A stretch of DNA of 30,766 nucleotides from a virus, in the IMG/VR virus record IMGVR_UViG_3300008262_000210, positions 1 to 30,766 of that record; one strand, written 5' to 3'. Positions 1 through 29,551 of the stretch are shown in pieces; position 1 is the first letter of the stretch, and each line of letters opens with the position of its first letter. The position numbers and the translations under genes are program-made. The notes beneath the pieces are model-generated. The model was not told the DNA's origin. It made no database searches and was given only the letters and a program-made list of their open reading frames with translations.

Positions 1-114
1 TCTTCACGCTTATCACATTCTTCTCCACTTGTGTTAATTATTACACTAATCTGTTCTTTTTTCAAGTTATCTATGACTTCTTTGAAAAAGTCATCATTTA
101 ATAGGTTTTTAGCC
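1..114. repeat. Left copy of 114-bp terminal redundancy
   Basis: These bases are identical to 30653-30766. Both copies fall inside coding sequence, and joining the ends gives an uninterrupted 79-aa gene. This is best read as the overlap of a circular or circularly permuted assembly. A physical direct terminal repeat is possible but less likely, because the break lies within the head-gene cluster rather than next to the terminase. Confidence 0.95.
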
Positions 115-140
115 CATTGTGCCAGTACGTGCTTGTCCAT
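1..140 (-). CDS. Small phage protein, 5' part (gene crosses the circular junction)
   Basis: ATG at 138-140 starts MDKHVLAQWAKNLL and reads leftward off position 1. Because position 1 equals position 30653, it continues on the right end to a TAG at 30553-30555. The complete protein is 79 aa and ends EKKWKIL. It is acidic in the middle, probably mostly helical, with no membrane segment or metal motif. The start lies 30 bp inside the end of the 723-aa gene, the tight overlap typical of this genome, and the scaffold gene follows. I do not recognise a family. Its place between portal and scaffold suggests a head-assembly or virion role, by position only. Confidence 0.8.
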   Translation of the reverse strand, partial: MDKHVLAQWAKNLLNDDFFKEVIDNLKKEQISVIINTSGEECDKRE

Positions 141-2280
141 ATTGGTTTTGTATTCCAGAAATAATATCGTTAATAGACAAAGTGCTTGCTAATGGCATAT
201 CTTGCTTGCTACCCAAGATGCTCATCAAATCGTTATAACTCAAGCTAGATGGTTTTGAGTATTTGATAGGCTCTGGTACTAGACCATATTTAGGGTCTAG
301 GAACTTTTCCCATTGAGTGCCACGCAACAGATTTTTGTCGCCAAAGTTAATTTGAGGCAATACAGTAGCAGTGGCAACACTTGGTTTTGGAGGAGTAGTC
401 CAAGTAGTAGGAACATTAACAATTGGATATTGAGTAGTACCACCACTTGTGCCACCGCCTGTACCCCCATTAGTAGCAGCGTTAATTCCTGCAAGCGTAG
501 TACCAGCACCAATTATCCTAATAATATCTGAAGTGGTTAATCCTGTGGGTGCACCCCCTCCAAAAATAGAAGTAATACCACGCAATAAATCAGCGCCTAA
601 TCCTGTGGGTGGCAGTCCCGCCTCTCCTGCTGCAATATCATCGACAGTAATACCTGAGGTTAGACTACCCGATGTTGGGAATCCTGCCTCTCCTGCTGCA
701 ATGTCGGCTGTTGTTATACCTGCGGTTAAACTACCTGTGGGTGGCAACCCTGCTTCCATTGCTGCAATATCAGCGGATGTAATTCCATCTGTTAGGCTTC
801 CTAATCCTGCATCTAAAGTACTAGAACCAATATTTCCAGTATTGGGATAAACGCCTAGTCCCGCATCTAGTGCGCTAGGAATAATATTACCTGTATTAGG
901 ATAAACACCCATTCCAGCATCCAAAGCGCTAGGAATAATGTTTCCAGTATTAGGATAAACGCCCATTCCAGCATCCAAAGCGCTAGGAATAATGTTTCCA
1001 GTATTAGGATAAACGCCCATTCCAGCATCTAGAGCAGATGTGCCACCTTGTAGATAACCACTTAATGCACCACCTGCGCCACCTAATAAAGCACCTTGAA
1101 GAATATCATTACCAGAAAGACCTGCTGTAGCACCGCCAAGAATAGCATTACCCAATGCACCTGTAGCTATTTCACTAGCACCAGCACCTAATATTGCATT
1201 ACCAAGCAAGCCACCCGCACCAGATGCAGCCAATCCAATCTGAATCAAAGGCATCAATTGACCTATATCAGAACTTGATGCGCCTGTTGTATAGAAAAGT
1301 GGAGTGCCGTCAGGAGCAAACTGAACACGATAGCCTGTGTTACCTTTACCTGCTGTAGTACCGCCAAATGCATTGCTTCCTGTTTCGTAGTTATTTGCAA
1401 TGGCTTGGCCTGTAACTTTATTGCCGAATGTTGTTTTTCCAGTGTCTCCAACTAACTTACCATCCACTGTCTTAATTTTTGATTGGTCAACTGGTACGTA
1501 AGATGAACCATACTCACCACCATCTCTAGCAACACCATAAACAGTTTCAAGTTTTGCGTCTTTGGGAACTTCAACCAAACGACTTTCAGGGTATGTTACT
1601 TCTCCAGTATCCGTACTGTTATAAGTCAGCGTTTTCCCTGTAGGCTCATAAATATAACGAGAAGTTTTGCCGTCTTCATCAGTTTGGGTAAAAACTCGTT
1701 TTCCGTTGTATAGCGTATCAATTGGTACTACAGGCTCTAAATCAGGAATTACACCAAATTGTTTAATGTCAGTAATGCCAGCAGTTGCCATCATTCTTGC
1801 CATGTCAGAAGCATTAGCTTGCGCAGTCCCCCATCCCTGACCTTGCCATTTATCCGTCAGGTTTTGCCCAAGAATTTGCTGGGTCAATGTGGCAGTGGCA
1901 GCATATCCAGTATCCGCAAGCACGTTACCTGACGCATCAACGATTTTGCCAGCAGCAGTTAGATATGTACCATTATTTAGATTAATTGGTGCTAAAGTTG
2001 TTGCTGTTGTAGTAGCTGGAGCAGTTGTCGTAGTTGTTGCAACTGGAGTAGTAGCAGTAGTAGTAGCTGTAGTAGCTGTAGTAGCTACAGGCTTAACTGC
2101 TGCTGGCTCTGTACCTTGCGCTCTTGCTGCTGCAACAGCACGTGCAAAAGATGCCTCCTCGTTAGCATCAATGACTGTGTCGCCACCACCTAAAAAACCT
2201 TCTGTCCAAAACTTTAAACCTGCTGGGTCTGCTTCACGACCAGTGTATTTGTCATATAACTGCTGAATAGTAAGCGCCAT
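109..2280 (-). CDS. Large repeat-rich virion-type protein (723 aa) between portal and junction gene
   Basis: Residues 8-29 (LYDKYTGREADPAGLKFW) resemble a DUF4214-like module. A Thr/Ala linker follows at roughly 65-95, then a mixed central region, a Gly/Ala-rich hydrophobic stretch around 335-410 (AASGAGGLLGNAILGAG), and two tandem repeat blocks. The first block is four copies of an 18-aa unit (PSALDAGMGVYPNTGNII). The second is three copies of a 22-aa unit (SLTxGITxxDIAAxEAG). The gene starts 2 bp after the portal stop, so it is cotranscribed with head genes. Gly-rich amphipathic stretches are typical of phage internal or ejected proteins, but that role is inference. A gene this long between portal and scaffold is unusual. 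Confidence 0.85.
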   Translation of the reverse strand: MALTIQQLYDKYTGREADPAGLKFWTEGFLGGGDTVIDANEEASFARAVAAARAQGTEPAAVKPVATTATTATTTATTPVATTTTTAPATTTATTLAPINLNNGTYLTAAGKIVDASGNVLADTGYAATATLTQQILGQNLTDKWQGQGWGTAQANASDMARMMATAGITDIKQFGVIPDLEPVVPIDTLYNGKRVFTQTDEDGKTSRYIYEPTGKTLTYNSTDTGEVTYPESRLVEVPKDAKLETVYGVARDGGEYGSSYVPVDQSKIKTVDGKLVGDTGKTTFGNKVTGQAIANNYETGSNAFGGTTAGKGNTGYRVQFAPDGTPLFYTTGASSSDIGQLMPLIQIGLAASGAGGLLGNAILGAGASEIATGALGNAILGGATAGLSGNDILQGALLGGAGGALSGYLQGGTSALDAGMGVYPNTGNIIPSALDAGMGVYPNTGNIIPSALDAGMGVYPNTGNIIPSALDAGLGVYPNTGNIGSSTLDAGLGSLTDGITSADIAAMEAGLPPTGSLTAGITTADIAAGEAGFPTSGSLTSGITVDDIAAGEAGLPPTGLGADLLRGITSIFGGGAPTGLTTSDIIRIIGAGTTLAGINAATNGGTGGGTSGGTTQYPIVNVPTTWTTPPKPSVATATVLPQINFGDKNLLRGTQWEKFLDPKYGLVPEPIKYSKPSSLSYNDLMSILGSKQDMPLASTLSINDIISGIQNQYGQARTGTMG
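601..798 (-). repeat. Three 66-bp coding repeats (22-aa unit)
   Basis: Inside the 723-aa gene, three consecutive 66-bp units encode SLT(D/A/S)GIT followed by DIAA-EAG and then LPPTG or FPTSG. The units differ at the DNA level, so this block looks older than the neighbouring 54-bp array. Confidence 0.85.
803..1034 (-). repeat. Array of 54-bp coding repeats (18-aa unit)
   Basis: Units lie at 803-856, 857-910, 911-964 and 965-1018, with a partial unit from 1019. The units at 911-964 and 965-1018 are identical base for base, which implies recent duplication. The unit encodes SALDAGMGVYPNTGNIIP. Period 54 keeps the frame, so copy number could change without breaking the protein. Confidence 0.93.
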
Positions 2281-7832: not shown

Positions 7833-7917
7833 ACAAAGCCCTTATAAAGTAAACCACTAGCGACCAAAAAGCCGCCAGTGAAATAACAATTAGTCGCCAA
7901 ACCGCCTGTTTACCCAT
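7825..7917 (-). CDS. Single-pass membrane microprotein (30 aa)
   Basis: The gene encodes MGKQAVWRLIVISLAAFWSL followed by VVYFIRALYD. A positively charged N-terminus precedes a ~20-residue hydrophobic helix. It overlaps the gene before it by 8 bp and the gene after it by 8 bp and fills the only gap between them, so translation is likely. Early phage microproteins of this kind often act on the host membrane, but nothing here shows a target. Confidence 0.65.
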   Translation of the reverse strand: MGKQAVWRLIVISLAAFWSLVVYFIRALYD

Positions 7918-8161
7918 GCTCGTAAGCAATAATCTTGGCATGGTCAGCCTCAGCAAGTAAGTGGCTAGTCAATCGCATTACACCTTCCATCTCAAGTTCT
8001 TTAAACTGTACGTCAGTAAAGATGCCCATGACGTTACGTCCTTCAAACCAGACTTCATCAATGTTCTCGTTGTAAGTTCCATCTGAGTCTTGCTCGTATT
8101 CCATCACAACAGTAACGATTACAGAGCCTTCACCAGTTGTTGTGTCAAATTCGTATTTCAT
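7910..8161 (-). CDS. Acidic hypothetical phage protein (83 aa)
   Basis: The start is MKYEFDTTTGEGSVIVTVVM, followed by alternating strands and a C-terminal helix (LTSHLLAEADHAKIIAYEHG). It is very acidic (EYEQDSDGTYNENIDEVWFEG), with no recognised domain. The Shine-Dalgarno AAGGAA precedes the ATG. It is the first gene after the promoter-like box at 8208-8218, so the 8161-7369 genes may form a separately started sub-operon. Confidence 0.75.
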   Translation of the reverse strand: MKYEFDTTTGEGSVIVTVVMEYEQDSDGTYNENIDEVWFEGRNVMGIFTDVQFKELEMEGVMRLTSHLLAEADHAKIIAYEHG

Positions 8162-8205: not shown

Positions 8206-8219
8206 CAAGTATAGCAAAC
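8206..8219 (-). promoter_or_regulatory. Internal early promoter with extended -10 box
   Basis: The minus strand reads TTTGCTATACTTGC. The 11-mer TTTGCTATACT (8208-8218) is identical to the two boxes in the divergent control region and contains TGn-TATACT, an extended -10. No good -35 is visible. It lies ~47 bp upstream of the ATG at 8161, in an 86-bp gap. Confidence 0.6.
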
Positions 8220-8247
8220 TAAACACAATAAAGCATAGGTGTTTTCC

Positions 8248-8580
8248 CTACTCCGTAGTTTTTACGCCAAGACGCTCACTTGCTTGCTCAGAACGCCATA
8301 TGTCTGCTTTCATCTGGGCAGCACTAAGCATCCATTTAAGGGTTTCTTCCTTTTCGATTGCCACCATAAGCCCTCGGAGTAAATCAGCATACTCAATGTG
8401 AGCATAGGCTTCTCGCTCTTGAGCCACGGCAGAATCTATCCCTCTGGCTAACGCTTCCTTCATCAGCAAAGCCTTTTTAGTTTTACGAAACTCCTCAAGG
8501 TAGATTCTTTGTGCTTTAGCCTCCGCAAACTTGGGTGCGTTTTCTATGATGTATTCAATGGCTTTGTAGGGTGCTTTCAC
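8248..8580 (-). CDS. Helical hypothetical phage protein (110 aa)
   Basis: The GTG at 8578-8580 is chosen as start. It forms a GTGA overlap with the preceding nuclease gene, and MKAPYKAIEYIIENA is the start I recall for this family of phage proteins. The frame stays open upstream to 8619. The body is almost all helix, with AKAQRIYLEEFRKTKKALLMKE and AAQMKADIWRSEQASERLG. The family recurs in phages of Proteobacteria next to recombination or replication genes, with no known function. The region 8162-8247 downstream holds only the promoter-like box. Confidence 0.8.
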   Translation of the reverse strand: MKAPYKAIEYIIENAPKFAEAKAQRIYLEEFRKTKKALLMKEALARGIDSAVAQEREAYAHIEYADLLRGLMVAIEKEETLKWMLSAAQMKADIWRSEQASERLGVKTTE

Positions 8581-9051: not shown

Positions 9052-9794
9052 AGTGATTCACTTAGGATTCTCCATGCTGTTGCAGCGCAAAGTGGAACTT
9101 GTCCGTTTCCAATGGCTTTAAGTCTGTCCACCCTATTGGCCACCCCATCAACCATTCGTATAGGCTCGGGTTGATTGAATGTGGAATGTGAGTCCCATTC
9201 TTGATTGCATTTTTGTACGCTCCAGAACCGCCTACATTCCCTCCTCCACTCGGAGTCGTTGGTGTTGGCCATGTTGAAATTCTTTTCTTCAAGGCTTTTC
9301 TGCTGTTGCTCCCACCATCTAATCCTGTTGTGTTGGGCGTGTGAAAGAAATTTTGGTTGTCTGGCAACAATCCAGATTCGCTTCCTTTCATGCTTCGCTC
9401 CAATGTCTGATGCTCCCAACACTCCCCATCTCGCATCAAACCCCATTGTGGCCAAGTCTCCGAGAACTCGTCCAAGTCCCCGAGAAGTGAGCATTGGTGA
9501 GTTTTCCACGAACACGAATCTGGGCTGTACTTCGTGAATGACCCTTGCCATTTCTCCCCAAAGTCCTGACCTTTCTCCGTCAAGTCCTGCACCTTTTCCT
9601 GCGGCACTAATGTCCTGACATGGAAATCCACCCGAGATAACATCGACTTTTCCTTTCCAAGGCTTTCCATCGAATGTACAAATGTCGTCCCAGATAGGGA
9701 ATCTAGGTAAGAGTCCATCAGCTTGCCGTTGCAGTAAAACTCTGCGTGGGTAATCTTCGATTTCAACGGCACACACAGTTCTCCATCCGAGCAA
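9048..9794 (-). CDS. Cytosine-5 DNA methyltransferase frame, out of frame with its start in this assembly
   Basis: This frame carries C5-methyltransferase motifs. Counted from the first in-frame TTG at 9794, they are PCQ with catalytic Cys at 58-60 (GGFPCQDIS), ENS at 97-99 in place of ENV, a motif VIII-like HERKRIWIV at 135-143, a short target-recognition region, and motifs IX/X as NRVDRLKAIGNGQVP at 220-234. Motif I is not in this ORF. It would be LFAGGGGGILAGHLLGW if the G-run at 9814-9824 were 12 (or 9) long instead of 11. The real start is then the ATG at 9847, coupled by ATGA to the gene before. As assembled the protein is either off, made by slippage, or the consensus is wrong. The enzyme would methylate phage DNA against host restriction. 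Confidence 0.85.
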   Translation of the reverse strand: MLGWRTVCAVEIEDYPRRVLLQRQADGLLPRFPIWDDICTFDGKPWKGKVDVISGGFPCQDISAAGKGAGLDGERSGLWGEMARVIHEVQPRFVFVENSPMLTSRGLGRVLGDLATMGFDARWGVLGASDIGAKHERKRIWIVARQPKFLSHAQHNRIRWWEQQQKSLEEKNFNMANTNDSEWRRECRRFWSVQKCNQEWDSHSTFNQPEPIRMVDGVANRVDRLKAIGNGQVPLCAATAWRILSESL

Positions 9795-9847
9795 ATGTCC
9801 TGCAAGGATTCCTCCCCCCCCCCCGCAAATAATGCCAACTCATTCAT
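9062..9847 (-). CDS. Overlapping-frame protein with SWKT and EWLMGWPIGW motifs (261 aa)
   Basis: With 11 G, the ATG at 9847 reads MNELALFAGGG and then this frame, open for 261 codons inside the methyltransferase. It is not random. It contains QDLTEKGQDFGEKWQGSF (88-105), SCSWKTHQCSLLGDLDEF (111-128), ETWPQWGLMRDGECWE (130-145), WPTPTTPSGGG (193-203) and EWLMGWPIGWTDLKPLETDK (231-250). I recall these motifs from a phage protein family of unknown function often annotated as methylase-related. The EWLMGWP...DLKPL segment is the shifted reading of the methyltransferase motif X DGVANRVDRLKAIGN. Start is ATGA-coupled to the replication-type gene. Function is unknown. Whether it is made, or only the methyltransferase, depends on the G-run. 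Confidence 0.6.
   Translation of the reverse strand: MNELALFAGGGEESLQDICSDGELCVPLKSKITHAEFYCNGKLMDSYLDSLSGTTFVHSMESLGKEKSMLSRVDFHVRTLVPQEKVQDLTEKGQDFGEKWQGSFTKYSPDSCSWKTHQCSLLGDLDEFSETWPQWGLMRDGECWEHQTLERSMKGSESGLLPDNQNFFHTPNTTGLDGGSNSRKALKKRISTWPTPTTPSGGGNVGGSGAYKNAIKNGTHIPHSINPSLYEWLMGWPIGWTDLKPLETDKFHFALQQHGES
9814..9824. repeat. Homopolymer: 11 C on plus, 11 G on coding strand
   Basis: This is an isolated C11 run in an AT-rich genome, eight codons into the methyltransferase locus and exactly at its FxGxGG SAM-binding motif. Twelve or nine G put the ATG at 9847 in frame with the methyltransferase, eleven give the 261-aa frame, and ten run to an early TGA. This length sensitivity is the hallmark of contingency loci, and such runs are also error-prone in sequencing. 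Confidence 0.95.
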
Positions 9848-11146: not shown

Positions 11147-11521
11147 TCAAATAAACTGATTATTTGTAATTTCTTTGGTAAATTTTGAATTAACTTTGTA
11201 AAAACTTCTAGCCTGTGCGTTCATTACAGCGTATTCAGACTTGGTAAAGATGCCCTTGGCATTGCGTATGTCAAAGGGGTTTAACTTGTTATATGGCTCA
11301 TCATTGGCAGCTTTTGTAGCCTGAATCATGCGTGGTTCTAGGGTGTACTTTTGTATCCAAGAACGTCCACTTTTAATTTTTTCGGCTGTAAGTTCTTTCT
11401 TACGAAGCATCTTTTTGCAAGCAGCCACGATAGATGTTCTTGGGATGCCTGTCAGATTCTCCATTTCATAGGATGTTAGAGGGCCGTTTTGTAGTGCTTT
11501 GATAATTGCTTCTTGTGTCAT
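11147..11521 (-). CDS. Winged-helix DNA-binding protein (124 aa)
   Basis: Start ATG 11521 forms ATGA with the Cro-like gene. The frame is open to 11584, but that would overlap the repressor. Residues 1-50 (MTQEAIIKALQNGPLTSYEM ... TGIPRTSIVAACKKMLRKKELT) form a helix-turn-helix plus wing typical of small phage regulators. The C-terminal half (KLNPFDIRNAKGIFTKSEYAVMNAQARSFYK) is basic and unknown. As second gene of the leftward operon it may regulate the early switch with the 50-aa protein, or serve replication. Confidence 0.75.
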   Translation of the reverse strand: MTQEAIIKALQNGPLTSYEMENLTGIPRTSIVAACKKMLRKKELTAEKIKSGRSWIQKYTLEPRMIQATKAANDEPYNKLNPFDIRNAKGIFTKSEYAVMNAQARSFYKVNSKFTKEITNNQFI

Positions 11522-11670
11522 TTGAACCACTCTGGTTTGAGTTCTTTTAGTTGATAAATTCGTAACTGAGGGATTGTCTTCCAATGGTTAACTGCTGCCC
11601 TAGTAATTCCTAATATTCTAGCAAGCTCACTCTGTGAGCCAGCAAGTGTGATAGCTTTTTTTATGTTCAT
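11518..11670 (-). CDS. Cro/YdaS-like repressor (50 aa)
   Basis: The start is MNIKKAITLAGSQSELARIL and it continues GITRAAVNHWKTIPQLRIYQ. The helix-turn-helix (SQSELARILGITRAAVNHWK) and the following IPQLRIYQLKELKPEWF are classic for Cro or YdaS-type mini-repressors. The start at 11670 lies only 7 nt after a TATACT -10 box, so the mRNA may be leaderless. It ends with ATGA overlap to the winged-helix gene. It probably binds the dyads at 11689-11703 and 11720-11732 to set leftward and rightward early transcription. Confidence 0.85.
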   Translation of the reverse strand: MNIKKAITLAGSQSELARILGITRAAVNHWKTIPQLRIYQLKELKPEWFK

Positions 11671-11676
11671 TCTACA

Positions 11677-11687
11677 AGTATAGCAAA
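11677..11687 (-). promoter_or_regulatory. Leftward early promoter, extended -10
   Basis: The minus strand reads TTTGCTATACT, with TGC before TATACT. Transcription would start about 7 nt further, at or next to the ATG of the Cro-like gene (11670). This is the mirror image of the rightward box at 11739-11749 (11-bp perfect inverted repeat). Confidence 0.7.
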
Positions 11688-11688
11688 A

Positions 11689-11703
11689 TCAACAAAATGT
11701 TGA
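11689..11703. promoter_or_regulatory. Operator-like dyad 1
   Basis: TCAACA-AAA-TGTTGA is a perfect 6-bp inverted repeat with a 3-bp centre. It lies just upstream of the leftward -10, where a repressor would block the polymerase. It is the best candidate site for the 50-aa Cro-like protein. Confidence 0.6.
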
Positions 11704-11719
11704 CTTAGGGAAAGCACCT

Positions 11720-11732
11720 AGACAAATAGTCT
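11720..11732. promoter_or_regulatory. Operator-like dyad 2
   Basis: AGAC-AAATA-GTCT is a 4-bp inverted repeat located 7 bp before the rightward extended -10 box, in the position of its -35 region. Its sequence differs from dyad 1, so it may bind another protein or be chance. Confidence 0.4.
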
Positions 11733-11738
11733 GTTTAC

Positions 11739-11749
11739 TTTGCTATACT
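11739..11749 (+). promoter_or_regulatory. Rightward early promoter, extended -10
   Basis: TTTGCTATACT is the same 11-mer as the leftward and the 8208 boxes. TAGACA about 19 bp upstream is a weak -35. The predicted leader before the first rightward ATG (11799) is about 43 nt and carries AAGGA as ribosome site. Confidence 0.7.
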
Positions 11750-11798
11750 CCACTCAGCCCACAACAAATCGTAAGTGGGTATTTTTAAGGAAAAGCAA

Positions 11799-11891
11799 AT
11801 GATAAGCAAAATAATTACATTCATTATTGAGGGCATCTTAGCCATCGTCATCTTTGGCGGTATCGGTGTATTACTGGCTTGGAGAGGCTAA
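11799..11891 (+). CDS. Membrane microprotein, first rightward early gene (30 aa)
   Basis: The gene encodes MISKIITFIIEGILAIVIFG followed by GIGVLLAWRG, almost wholly hydrophobic, one membrane helix with a GG motif. The Shine-Dalgarno AAGGA lies 8 nt before the ATG, and its stop overlaps the next ATG (TAATG). Being first after the rightward promoter, it would be among the first phage proteins made. Function is unknown. Membrane-targeting host takeover or superinfection exclusion would be speculation. Confidence 0.75.
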   Translation: MISKIITFIIEGILAIVIFGGIGVLLAWRG

Positions 11892-12067
11892 TGACTAGAC
11901 AAGACGCTATCAAAGACTTGTCGCACGATGACTACTGCTGTTACTGCACAGAACCCAAGGGCGACAAATATGTTTGCTGCTCAGAAAACCACTTCGTACC
12001 TTTCGAGGATTTATACGATGAAGACAAAGAAGCAATGATTGAAGAATATTTAAGTAAAGGAAATTAA
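11891..12067 (+). CDS. Cys-rich small phage protein (58 aa)
   Basis: The start is MTRQDAIKDLSHDDYCCYCT and cysteines occur as CCYC (16-19) and CC (30-31), suggesting a small zinc site. ENHFVPFEDL follows and an acidic helical tail ends the protein. The ATG is fixed by the TAATG junction. The DDYCCYC...CC.ExHFVPF pattern is familiar from other phages, with no known role. Confidence 0.75.
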   Translation: MTRQDAIKDLSHDDYCCYCTEPKGDKYVCCSENHFVPFEDLYDEDKEAMIEEYLSKGN

Positions 12068-12068
12068 G

Positions 12069-12734
12069 ATGTCAATTGAAGCACTACTCAAGTTAAATGT
12101 TAACGAGCATACTGAAAAGAAGCAAAACCTAACCTACCTATCATGGGCTTGGGCATGGGCTGAAGCACTTAAAGCAGACCCAAAGGCTACCTACAAAGTA
12201 GAAATGTTTGATGGCAAGTGCTACATGGAAATCAATGGCACAGCAATGGTCTGGGTGACAGTTACCATGTTTGACAAGCCAATGACCTGCCAGTTACCAG
12301 TAATGGACTCGGGCAACAAAGCAATTCCCTTAAAGGGCTATACAGCAGTTTCTAAGTATGGCAAAGAGTATCGGGTTGAGTGTGATGCGTTTGCGGTTAA
12401 CACAGCCATCATGCGTTGCATGACCAAAGCACTTGGCTTGCATGGACTCGGGTTATACATCTACGCTGGTCAGGATTTGCCAGATGAAGATAGCCCACCA
12501 GAAAAGATAATCATCACGCCAACTCAAGGCGCAATGGATACCATCCCAGAAGATGAACAGAATTATCTTAGAGAGTTAGCAATGGAGTTAATTGCTATCT
12601 GTGAGAAAGAAGAACCTAAGACAGCTTGGGTGAAGTTGGAAGCAGAGAACTTAGACAGCGAACAAAAGATTGCTCTATGGACATTGCTTCCTAGTAAAGT
12701 AAGAAGTGCATTGAAAAATGCGAAAGGTGTGTAA
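12069..12734 (+). CDS. Single-strand annealing protein, Sak3/DUF1071-like (221 aa)
   Basis: Residues 20-32 (NLTYLSWAWAWAE) are the signature of the DUF1071 family, which is assigned to phage annealing proteins (Sak3 type). The rest of the core follows with IPLKGYTAVSKYGKEYRVEC and FAVNTAIMRCMTKALGLHGL, and an acidic helical C-terminus from ~145. It would pair complementary strands for phage recombination and concatemer formation, acting with the small nucleases of the leftward operon. AAGGAAATTAAG precedes the ATG. No RecA-like or exonuclease partner is adjacent. Confidence 0.85.
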   Translation: MSIEALLKLNVNEHTEKKQNLTYLSWAWAWAEALKADPKATYKVEMFDGKCYMEINGTAMVWVTVTMFDKPMTCQLPVMDSGNKAIPLKGYTAVSKYGKEYRVECDAFAVNTAIMRCMTKALGLHGLGLYIYAGQDLPDEDSPPEKIIITPTQGAMDTIPEDEQNYLRELAMELIAICEKEEPKTAWVKLEAENLDSEQKIALWTLLPSKVRSALKNAKGV

Positions 12735-26159: not shown

Positions 26160-27598
26160 CAGCGCACTCCCTGACCTGTCACATCAACATCCACAGCCAC
26201 AGCGTTCTTCCAATCTGCGCCAGTAGGAACAACTTGAATACGATGATAACGCCCTGCGCTACGCAAAGAAACCCTGTTCTCTGAGTCGGCAGCTACTGGA
26301 GTCCCAAAGGTAACGTCTTGGCTTAACAATGTGCGAGAAGCTACAGCAATCGTTGCAGAGCCATTGTCTACCTGTGGTCTAGCCAAAGTCACTACAGACT
26401 GCCCACCAAGGTCAATATCGCCAGTAGCAATGTTTCCTGTAAGACTTGCACCTGTGTAGGTATAAACCTTTGCACCTAGCGTACCACCAAGGAAATACTT
26501 ACCACCCACATACAAACGTGAATCTAAACTTGTCGTCAATGCGTCAATAGATGCGTTAATGCTATCTAATTGCTCAAGAGTTACAGCAGTCGTAGATGCC
26601 TCAGACAAGTAATCAGTACCTGCGTCTGCATAAGTCCATCTCTTTGTAGCAAAGTTGTAAATGATTAGTTTACGATTTCCGTCTGTAGCTACATAGTTCC
26701 AAATCACCAACTTACGGATAGGGTCAACAGCAGCAGACATAGAACCATAATCAGATTCTGATGCGTCATCAATAAAGAATCGGTCAACCTTCTCACTACC
26801 GATTGGCTGAACAGTCTGACCATCACACAGATAAAAACCATCGTCTGATAGGAAGAATGTAATCCCTTGGTACTGTGCAATAGAACCTGCAACCATACAT
26901 CCCTTATTACGAGAGATGTTGTCAAACTGGAATATGAACGGAGTACCCACATAGGTCATTCGGCTAATGGCTCTTTCTAAGAACACCAAACCAAACTCAC
27001 CACCACGGATTCCGACAATCTGTCCACCATCAGGAATATCTTGATAGTCAGACTGAGTGTTTACATTCTCTACCCAATCAGTCTCGTTATTAATAGCTGA
27101 CCAACGAACACGATATTGTTGTTGTGCAGAAGATTCATAAGTATTAGCGCAAACCACAAAGTCACGCACAACAGTAATGAACTTAGCAATAGGCGCAGAA
27201 GCACTTAAATTAGCAAATGCTGTAGAAGTTCCTAAAGTCCATGCTTGTAATACATCAGCATTGTTAGTTGTGATAACAGTCTTACCAAACTGAGTAAAAC
27301 GAACCTTGTCGTTAATACCAGTAGTCATCCCTGTCTTAACTTGAGTCAATGCGCCTACGCCATCTACTGTGTAAATCTTAGATGCACCAGAAGTAAACAA
27401 CTGAGTTGTAGAGTCTGGATTCTTGGCAGCGTACAAAGAAACCAAATCCTCGGCAGCAGTACCAGAGAACGCTACAGCACTAGGGAAAGGCCCATATCCA
27501 ACAGCCTGAGAAACCACGTTCTTAGCGTTAGTCAATGCACCAGTAATACCTGATTGGTCAGGCATCCACTCACCTAGTTGAATTCTTTGTGTAGCCAT
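26159..27598 (-). CDS. Tail hub/stabilisation protein, P22 gp10-like by position (479 aa)
   Basis: The ATG at 27598 (MATQRIQLGEWMPDQSGITG) lies just after the adaptor stop (27600) and is the likely start. The frame extends to 27655 inside the adaptor gene. Repeated beta segments (LFTSGASKIYTVDGVGALTQ; GIRGGEFGLVFLERAISRMT; ITFFLSDDGFYLCDGQTVQP; KLVIWNYVATDGNRKLIIYN) suggest a beta-propeller, as in P22 gp10. It would close the portal-adaptor channel. Family assignment is inferred from fold pattern and gene order. Confidence 0.72.
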   Translation of the reverse strand: MATQRIQLGEWMPDQSGITGALTNAKNVVSQAVGYGPFPSAVAFSGTAAEDLVSLYAAKNPDSTTQLFTSGASKIYTVDGVGALTQVKTGMTTGINDKVRFTQFGKTVITTNNADVLQAWTLGTSTAFANLSASAPIAKFITVVRDFVVCANTYESSAQQQYRVRWSAINNETDWVENVNTQSDYQDIPDGGQIVGIRGGEFGLVFLERAISRMTYVGTPFIFQFDNISRNKGCMVAGSIAQYQGITFFLSDDGFYLCDGQTVQPIGSEKVDRFFIDDASESDYGSMSAAVDPIRKLVIWNYVATDGNRKLIIYNFATKRWTYADAGTDYLSEASTTAVTLEQLDSINASIDALTTSLDSRLYVGGKYFLGGTLGAKVYTYTGASLTGNIATGDIDLGGQSVVTLARPQVDNGSATIAVASRTLLSQDVTFGTPVAADSENRVSLRSAGRYHRIQVVPTGADWKNAVAVDVDVTGQGVR

Positions 27599-28600: not shown

Positions 28601-29551
28601 TTAAGGTGTCAAGTCAGCCAAAATGCCATGTGCAGCTTGGTTTTTAACTTCCAAGGTGTACTCAGCCAACAACTGTGTAGACTCATTGTCACCAGTCACA
28701 GCCAACTCGTTGGTCTGGAAGGGACGCAGATAAGCTACAGCAGCCATGTCTGGGTCAACGATAAACGCTGTGTCATCGCATGAGTTGGTAGAAGTCATAA
28801 AGCGGTTGGGGACAACAGAAATTGTGCCGAAATCGCTCATGTAAACATCCGCAGCCGCCACGATTGTGGTTGGTGTGTTAGACGGGGCCATGAAACGCTG
28901 TGCAGCGATACCAGCAAAAGCTGACACCAATTGCTTGTGTGCAGGGTTGACCATCAACACTTTGGGATTGCCACCAGAAGCGTAAACTTCTTTGATAACA
29001 GTCTTCAAGATGTCTTCTGTGAAGGTGCGATTTGTACCATTGGTACGAGCAGTAGTGCCCAAGTCACCAGCAACACCAGAAGTACCACCATCATAGTTGC
29101 TGTTCAACCATGCTTGCAGACCACCCAATTTACGAGCAGTAGAAGAATCACCATTGGAGGCAACTTGGTTGCTCAACAATGAAGTTTCCATGTCCCGCTT
29201 AATTTCAGCCGATGCTTTAGCCAATTGATAGGCTTTTTCAGATTTGCGGCCTGCTTTGTCAACGCTCTGCAAAGTGCCAGAAATCTTGATTGTTTTCTGT
29301 GCAATCTGAGTGCGGTTACCTACACGAGTAGTAGGAGACATAGTGGCATCTGATGCCGTGGCCCCTTCGACTGCGTAGTTCGTTAAAACAGCAGCCGAAA
29401 GTGAGTCCGTTTGCCACTCATGGTAAACAGCAGTAGCCTTTGTCTTGCCAATAGAAGACATGAAAGGTGTGTCTGTAGGGCTGATGTTATAGATAACGTC
29501 AGAGAGGTCTTCACGCATACCGATTGCGGTATATGTTTGATAGGTAGCCAT
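28601..29551 (-). CDS. Major capsid protein, SU10/DUF5309 type (316 aa)
   Basis: The start MATYQTYTAIGMREDLSDVI, then YNISPTDTPFMSSIGKTKAT, is the hallmark of the SU10 major capsid family (DUF5309, HK97 fold). The P-domain region has GNRTQIAQKTIKISGTLQSV, and the C-terminal QLLAEYTLEVKNQAAHGILA is also conserved. No N-terminal delta domain is seen, consistent with a separate scaffold gene upstream. GGAG lies ~11 nt before the ATG. A terminator follows. Confidence 0.93.
   Translation of the reverse strand: MATYQTYTAIGMREDLSDVIYNISPTDTPFMSSIGKTKATAVYHEWQTDSLSAAVLTNYAVEGATASDATMSPTTRVGNRTQIAQKTIKISGTLQSVDKAGRKSEKAYQLAKASAEIKRDMETSLLSNQVASNGDSSTARKLGGLQAWLNSNYDGGTSGVAGDLGTTARTNGTNRTFTEDILKTVIKEVYASGGNPKVLMVNPAHKQLVSAFAGIAAQRFMAPSNTPTTIVAAADVYMSDFGTISVVPNRFMTSTNSCDDTAFIVDPDMAAVAYLRPFQTNELAVTGDNESTQLLAEYTLEVKNQAAHGILADLTP

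Follow-up and report, generated by a model that had tools for sequence, protein, structure and literature searches.

Does a Cro-like gene that starts beside two mirrored promoter boxes mark a lambda-type decision region, or a divergent early control region of another kind? The question arises from a sequence-only reading of positions 11,671 to 11,798 of the window, by which we mean the whole analysed stretch of 30,766 bases (IMG/VR record IMGVR_UViG_3300008262_000210), and it bears on gene control in uncultured environmental phages, of whose logic almost nothing is known. The record ends in a perfect terminal repeat (about 115 bases), so that it is most likely a circular assembly and complete. 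It encodes virion proteins, among others SU10-type portal and capsid proteins (PF23899, PF17236) and an endolysin (phrog_7), as well as a replication-initiation-like protein, and the closest named portals are those of the Manatee Spring phages (70 % identity) and of Methylophilales phage Venkman EXVC282S (53 % identity). Elsewhere in the window, a cytosine methyltransferase-like ORF (9062–9847, minus strand) apparently misses the N-terminal part that is present at the related locus L074; two frames overlap across this stretch, and truncation is possible. The large ORF at 109–2280 (minus strand) contains direct repeats at 805–1035 that are 81–83 % alike, at offsets of 108 and 162.

The elements described in the sequence-only reading are indeed present: an 11-bp box recurs as a perfect inverted repeat (AGTATAGCAAA on the left, TTTGCTATACT on the right), two dyads lie between its copies at the claimed coordinates, and the Cro-like (HTH) gene starts at the predicted leftward transcript start, its ATG lying 6 nt beyond the leftward −10 hexamer. 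Taken by itself, this pattern is nevertheless within chance. One 11-bp inverted pair within 100 bp was observed as compared to a shuffle mean of 0.97, with at least one such pair in 28 of 60 shuffles, and the dyads in 11671–11798 reach p values of only about 0.17–0.28 against shuffles; since these counts are near the shuffle expectation, the region can gain credibility only from comparison with relatives. A consensus promoter scan of the window listed neither promoter of the switch, and exact mirrored boxes are uncommon: when the 900 nt upstream of Sak were compared in 80 relatives, both copies were exact in 5. The window furthermore holds a third perfect TTTGCTATACT box, on the minus strand, that had escaped the earlier reading.

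Loci for comparison were chosen by a scan for Sak, which gave at least 599 confirmed stretches, and the best 80 of these were used together with the window. The first leftward gene was recognisable in 72 of the resulting 81 sequences, while the remaining nine were dropped for too little upstream sequence or an unrecognised first gene, and 60 regions proved distinct over 107 bases. These comprise 16 regions in which the first leftward gene is Cro-like (Cro-type, window included) and 44 in which it encodes an unrelated acidic protein of 59 aa (acid-type). All 60 distinct regions carry a TAGG/CCTA palindrome with at most one mismatch and 6–8 bp between the arms (16/16 Cro-type regions and 44/44 regions without a Cro-like gene; shuffle expectation 0.13–0.18), and the exact form is kept in 7/16 Cro-type and 38/44 acid-type regions (expectation 0.003–0.007), although the relatives are of common ancestry and the shuffle statistics hence overstate their independence. 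In the window, this palindrome lies between the mirrored boxes, has one mismatch in one arm, and was missing from the list of the sequence-only reading; column counts confirm that it rises above its surroundings. By comparison, the left dyad occurs in 9/16 Cro-type and 0/44 acid-type regions and the right dyad in 2/16 and 0/44, respectively, so that it is the central palindrome that would represent the common operator. The proposal that both dyads are operators thus survives in part only: the left one, confined to the Cro-type subgroup in the sequences compared, stays a candidate site, while the right one, retained in just two Cro-type regions, is probably incidental.

It is the place of the operator that is conserved; genome-wide enrichment as such is not borne out by the sequences. 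Counts of TAGGG-N5-CCCTA with one mismatch were modest and often near the reversed control across 16 records, and with two mismatches the window itself yielded 8 operator matches versus 11 for the reversed control, i. e., fewer than the control. Scanning viral contigs for the pattern TAGGGAAANCACCTA returned at least 120 loci, and a TTTGCTATACT-like box was found nearby in only 2 of the 120 listed; these matches are mostly chance. Comparison with relatives in any case supports the sequence-only reading in so far as two opposed putative promoters make up a compact divergent control region. The region appears as a real one, which that reading had centred on the wrong element and wrongly compared to lambda.

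Table 1. Features of the divergent region, its flanking genes, and the second module (coordinates of the window; promoters, operators, and leader are predictions).
Feature	Position	Strand	Remark
83-aa gene, first gene of the third promoter	7910..8161	−	Pfam: nothing above cut-off
Third TTTGCTATACT box, predicted promoter	8208..8218	−	−10 hexamer 22 nt from second operator
Second operator TAGGGAAAACACCTA (minus-strand reading; putative)	8236..8250		orthologous operator in 37/41 distinct regions
124-aa winged-helix protein, second leftward gene, candidate regulator	11147..11521	−	MarR/ArsR-type matches
50-aa P22-Cro/YdaS-type HTH gene, predicted leaderless	11518..11670	−	PF14549 and PF15943
Leftward extended −10 promoter TTTGCTATACT (TGC-TATACT), predicted	11677..11687	−	AGTATA 6 nt from ATG in 16/16
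Left dyad TCAACA-AAA-TGTTGA	11689..11703		between operator and leftward −10; candidate autoregulatory site of the Cro-like protein
Central operator TAGGGAAAGCACCTA (putative; family form TAGGG-N4..6-CCCTA)	11706..11720		its centre precedes the first base of either −10 hexamer by 31 bp
Right dyad AGAC-AAATA-GTCT (AGAC-N5-GTCT)	11720..11732		named in the sequence-only reading; probably incidental
Rightward extended −10 promoter TTTGCTATACT, predicted	11739..11749	+	best −35 only 2/6
Rightward 5′ leader: hairpin CCCAC...GTGGG and RBS	11756..11799	+	leader start predicted
58-aa CxxC...CC putative zinc protein, candidate regulator	11891..12067	+	upstream of Sak; no Pfam match
Sak-type single-strand annealing protein	12069..12734	+	PF06378, 132 bits; rightward operon

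A further aspect is the position of the operator relative to the promoter boxes. In the window, its edge lies 23 nt from the −10 hexamer on both sides, which would place its centre at about −43 of each start, provided that transcription begins 7 nt past the −10. Among the 60 distinct regions, the left spacing amounts to 23–24 nt in 43 and to 34 nt in three; in 11 acid-type promoters it is 24 or 26 nt depending on the choice of hexamer, one locus (L050) shows 54 nt plus a second left-hand element, and two regions were left unassigned by the script. When spacers at least 80 % alike were removed before counting, TANNNT was found at offset 22–24 in 14 of 18 left spacers (other offset triples: mean 1.9, maximum 6) and in 15 of 19 spacers of a third promoter, described below (mean 2.0, maximum 11), while only 5 of 21 distinct right spacers had it there, with other triples reaching up to 7. 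The rightward promoters of the Cro-type regions are nonetheless informative: all four with the operator 22–23 nt away carry TGn and match the −35 consensus at merely 2, 2, 2, and 4 of 6 positions, whereas all twelve with the operator one turn farther (32–34 nt) possess a −35 of 4–6/6. A −35 that is weak when the operator is near and good when it is one turn farther away is expected if the operator replaces the −35. On the right side, 42/44 acid-type regions share another conserved block, TGTGGCACATTA-like and 18–19 nt away, for which a −10 is not assignable with confidence; a sigma54 promoter at TGTGGCACATTA was considered and, as judged by eye, rejected, the −12 GC being missing at the proper distance.

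The same arrangement is found a second time in the window, where 11706–11802 is duplicated at 8250–8158 (76 % identical, E 1e-10). The duplicate has kept TAGGGAAA[G/A]CACCTA, the promoter box, and the leader with its RBS, and neither of the two dyads of the sequence-only reading. Of 41 distinct regions upstream of orthologues of the gene at 7910, 37 carry the operator (expectation 0.06), and its distance to the −10 is 22–24 nt in 25 of the 30 regions in which the script found a −10. Five relatives were furthermore read whole, and the sites recur at the switch and upstream of the 7910 orthologue (G003 and G009, with variants in G001 and G013). The sequence elements as such, as well as their conservation, spacing, and duplication, are matters of direct observation.

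These observations can be joined in one mechanism, in which promoter activity, start sites, binding, the sign of regulation, and the identity of the regulator are all inferred from the sequences. The central operator would sit midway between two back-to-back sigma70-type promoters of the extended −10 kind that lack a −35, and a dimeric regulator would occupy it at about −43 of both, i. e., in the place of the −35. Most likely, this regulator aids RNA polymerase at the −35-less promoters in class II or Mu-Mor fashion, and it would also bind at the duplicated operator-promoter-leader module, from which the leftward genes from 8161 would be driven. As both polymerases need the same DNA, firing of the two promoters should be mutually exclusive. 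In the subgroup of the window, the leftward transcript would begin at or beside the ATG of the 50-aa Cro-like protein, which may in turn repress its own promoter via the left dyad. We consider it about equally probable that this account as a whole (a dimeric regulator on a shared operator at about −43 of a divergent early region in a probably lytic, integrase-less phage) holds or fails, and it is weighed down by the weak spacing signal on the right-hand side, by the rival triple of 11/19 at the third promoter, and by the nature of the record, a metagenome contig. An operator-promoter module that keeps its places while the first genes are exchanged would offer a testable handle, with TAGGG-N5-CCCTA as a probe to fish for the regulator.

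The nearest parallel is provided by phage Mu, in which a Mor dimer at Pm occupies two 5-bp inverted repeats; these lie within a 16-bp element at −43.5, which takes the place of the −35 (PMC4390567). The likeness extends to 5-bp inverted repeats, an element of 15–16 bp near −43, and the lack of a −35, with the starts predicted here from the −10; unlike at Pm, the element would serve two back-to-back promoters and a third one, and its binding is putative. A regulator of the Mor family itself was rejected, as no match to the Mor/C family (PF08765) reached E ≤ 1 in any of 17 records.

The sign of regulation is less certain than its place. In the same source, extended −10 promoters are described as able to fire without an activator (PMC4390567), and a repressor would therefore fit in the window as well: an early phage protein could silence the two early promoters and the third one alike, similar to a lytic Cro. 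This reading draws on the fact that the promoters of the window are good ones of exactly this type, that the operator abuts the −35 position so that, once a dimer is bound, sigma region 4 would be kept out on both sides, and that rightward promoters with a −35 of their own keep the operator one turn upstream. On the other hand, the acid-type third promoters (TAACAT, without TGn or visible −35) would hardly fire unaided, and repression would not call for a spacing as narrow as the 22–24 nt observed in several unrelated spacers. We thus regard the repressor site as a serious possibility that probably does not apply. By our own reckoning, the regulator is more likely helping than blocking, with activation somewhat favoured, repression holding a sizeable minority share, and any other role a small one.

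Which protein might read the operator? The 50-aa protein scores 39.5 bits against P22_Cro (PF14549; cut-off 30.2) and also passes the cut-off of YdaS (PF15943), in which it resembles these families, its DNA target being putative. The hexamer AGTATA lies exactly 6 nt from the ATG of the first gene in 16/16 distinct Cro-type regions, which makes it probable that the mRNA of the Cro-like gene is leaderless. In the 44 acid-type regions, however, the operator is kept while the first gene is the unrelated 59-aa protein, for which structure modelling gave helices only, at modest confidence (pTM 0.41). With the first gene interchangeable and the operator retained, the Cro-like protein is unlikely to act as the general reader of the central operator, and the left dyad is left as the only plausible candidate site for it. 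Reading of this dyad by the Cro recognition helix is at best unproven, as helix and dyad types do not match across 17 proteins, a point of difference from the P22 Cro and YdaS families.

The sequence-only reading had likened the region to a lambda-type decision between lysis and lysogeny, in which the 50-aa protein would act as Cro on the two dyads, with an unrecognised second repressor as its competitor. This explanation can cite the P22_Cro match, the divergent promoters flanking operator DNA (as far as sequence and conservation tell), and the occurrence of the left dyad in Cro-type regions only. Against it, tyrosine integrase (PF00589), resolvase (PF00239), and Peptidase_S24 (PF00717) were each found in 0 of 17 records, some of which may be incomplete, with profile controls positive in 14, 10, and 10 of 14 genomes, respectively; the remark of that reading that no integrase or second repressor was evident is borne out to this extent. 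In addition, the species-genome collection contained as sole Sak relative one 3.7-kb contig of a Burkholderiales metagenome-assembled genome (MAG), the first gene is exchanged while the operator is kept, and the right dyad is scarcely retained. We therefore find a lambda-type decision very improbable; the phage is probably integrase-less and lytic, and a Cro-like gene next to mirrored promoters does not imply lysogeny.

A certain resemblance to known switches is still evident. Lambda OR with PRM and PR likewise has divergent promoters around common operator DNA, and one lambda promoter with a site near −42 gives rise to an mRNA whose first gene lacks a leader. The region of the window differs from lambda OR by its single shared and conserved operator, its interchangeable first gene, and the S24-type repressor and integrase that were searched for and not found. 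For lambda cI, a leaderless mRNA is mentioned in a study on phage PY54, in which the cro and cI mRNAs of immB are reported to be leaderless as well and a single Cro operator lies between the divergent repressor genes (PMC4488713). PY54 immB shares with the window a Cro-like gene, a probably leaderless mRNA, and a single site between divergent genes; in contrast, PY54 is a temperate phage that has a prophage repressor, and its Cro binds the single operator, whereas Cro-like gene and operator do not travel together here. Among the named relatives, Venkman EXVC282S has a Cro-like gene at its divergent point and no TAGGG-N5-CCCTA (at most one mismatch) in that gap, while Manatee Spring phage MW202710 shows the geometry of the window with a degenerate operator.

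With the Cro-like protein an unlikely reader, other candidates come into view. The winged-helix protein encoded by the second leftward gene could bind the operator that its gene adjoins, and its fold, of MarR/ArsR type by its matches (best E 4e-4), is modelled with a pLDDT of 84–92 over residues 1–60 in the AF2 block. Its gene was found in 16 of 19 records searched, or in 16 of 17 when the IMG/VR records alone are counted, but it is not beside the operator in three loci that carry one (L058, L074, and L076) and is missing from record G011, by which it is ruled out as sole reader. Furthermore, its recognition helix (residues 28–40) has no invariant residue among 12 aligned variants, although the arms of the operator are constant. 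On balance, we think it unlikely, if conceivable, that this protein reads the operator. Related to this, one record of 68,218 bases (G010), about twice the usual length, has two switch-like operators, one adjoining a winged-helix gene and one without, and possibly represents two phages fused during assembly.

A host transcription factor, from whose regulon the early phage promoters would borrow, could explain why the operator is constant while the adjoining phage regulators are exchanged. TAGGG-N5-CCCTA was, however, not enriched versus the reversed pattern when 28 genomes were examined from the family to which the Burkholderiales MAG belongs, a weak test in that this family may not be that of the host; 13 of the 28 contained any copy, and one of them (G040) has 20 copies, nearly all of them TAGGGTCWGACCCTA. 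A host factor as reader strikes us as quite improbable. The 58-aa CxxC...CC protein is encoded beside Sak in 72/72 regions, which is in part a selection effect, as the loci were chosen by Sak. It may conceivably be the activator, of unrecognised family, of a phage-wide module from which a large family of uncultured phages would run its early genes, with a host factor as the other option; a single shared dimer would then replace the −35 at the two back-to-back promoters and once more at the third one, and the next gene downstream, Cro-like or coding for the acidic helical protein of 59 aa, would be freely exchanged. Such an either-or control of the early genes, without a pair of repressors, is a tentative idea that we would not expect to be confirmed.

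Returning to the divergent promoters and their shared operator, the rightward transcript opens with a micropeptide of 30 aa (11800–11892, plus strand), of single-helix membrane type and preceded by a good RBS. A like peptide, ending in IFGG[IW]GV[LM]LA[WY]RG, opens the right side in 9 of the 16 Cro-type loci in which the script found the first gene, out of 17 Cro-type loci in all. Hairpins are present at the 5′ end of both the rightward and the third leader (11757–11783, plus strand, and 8200–8176, minus strand), and in relatives of the other group the stem is mirrored (GTGGG...CCCAC). Fold z-scores of these hairpins were −2.0, −1.1, and −2.1, and an apparent compensatory change was seen in a single case (L017, n=1). 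Four acid-type records additionally contain an array of AGGGTTTACC/AGGGTTTCTACC-like repeats in a second intergenic gap (G003, 28929–29010; G005, 35790–35880; G009, 26209–26270; G013, from 36204 on), which is a candidate for an operator cluster, an origin, or a packaging site.
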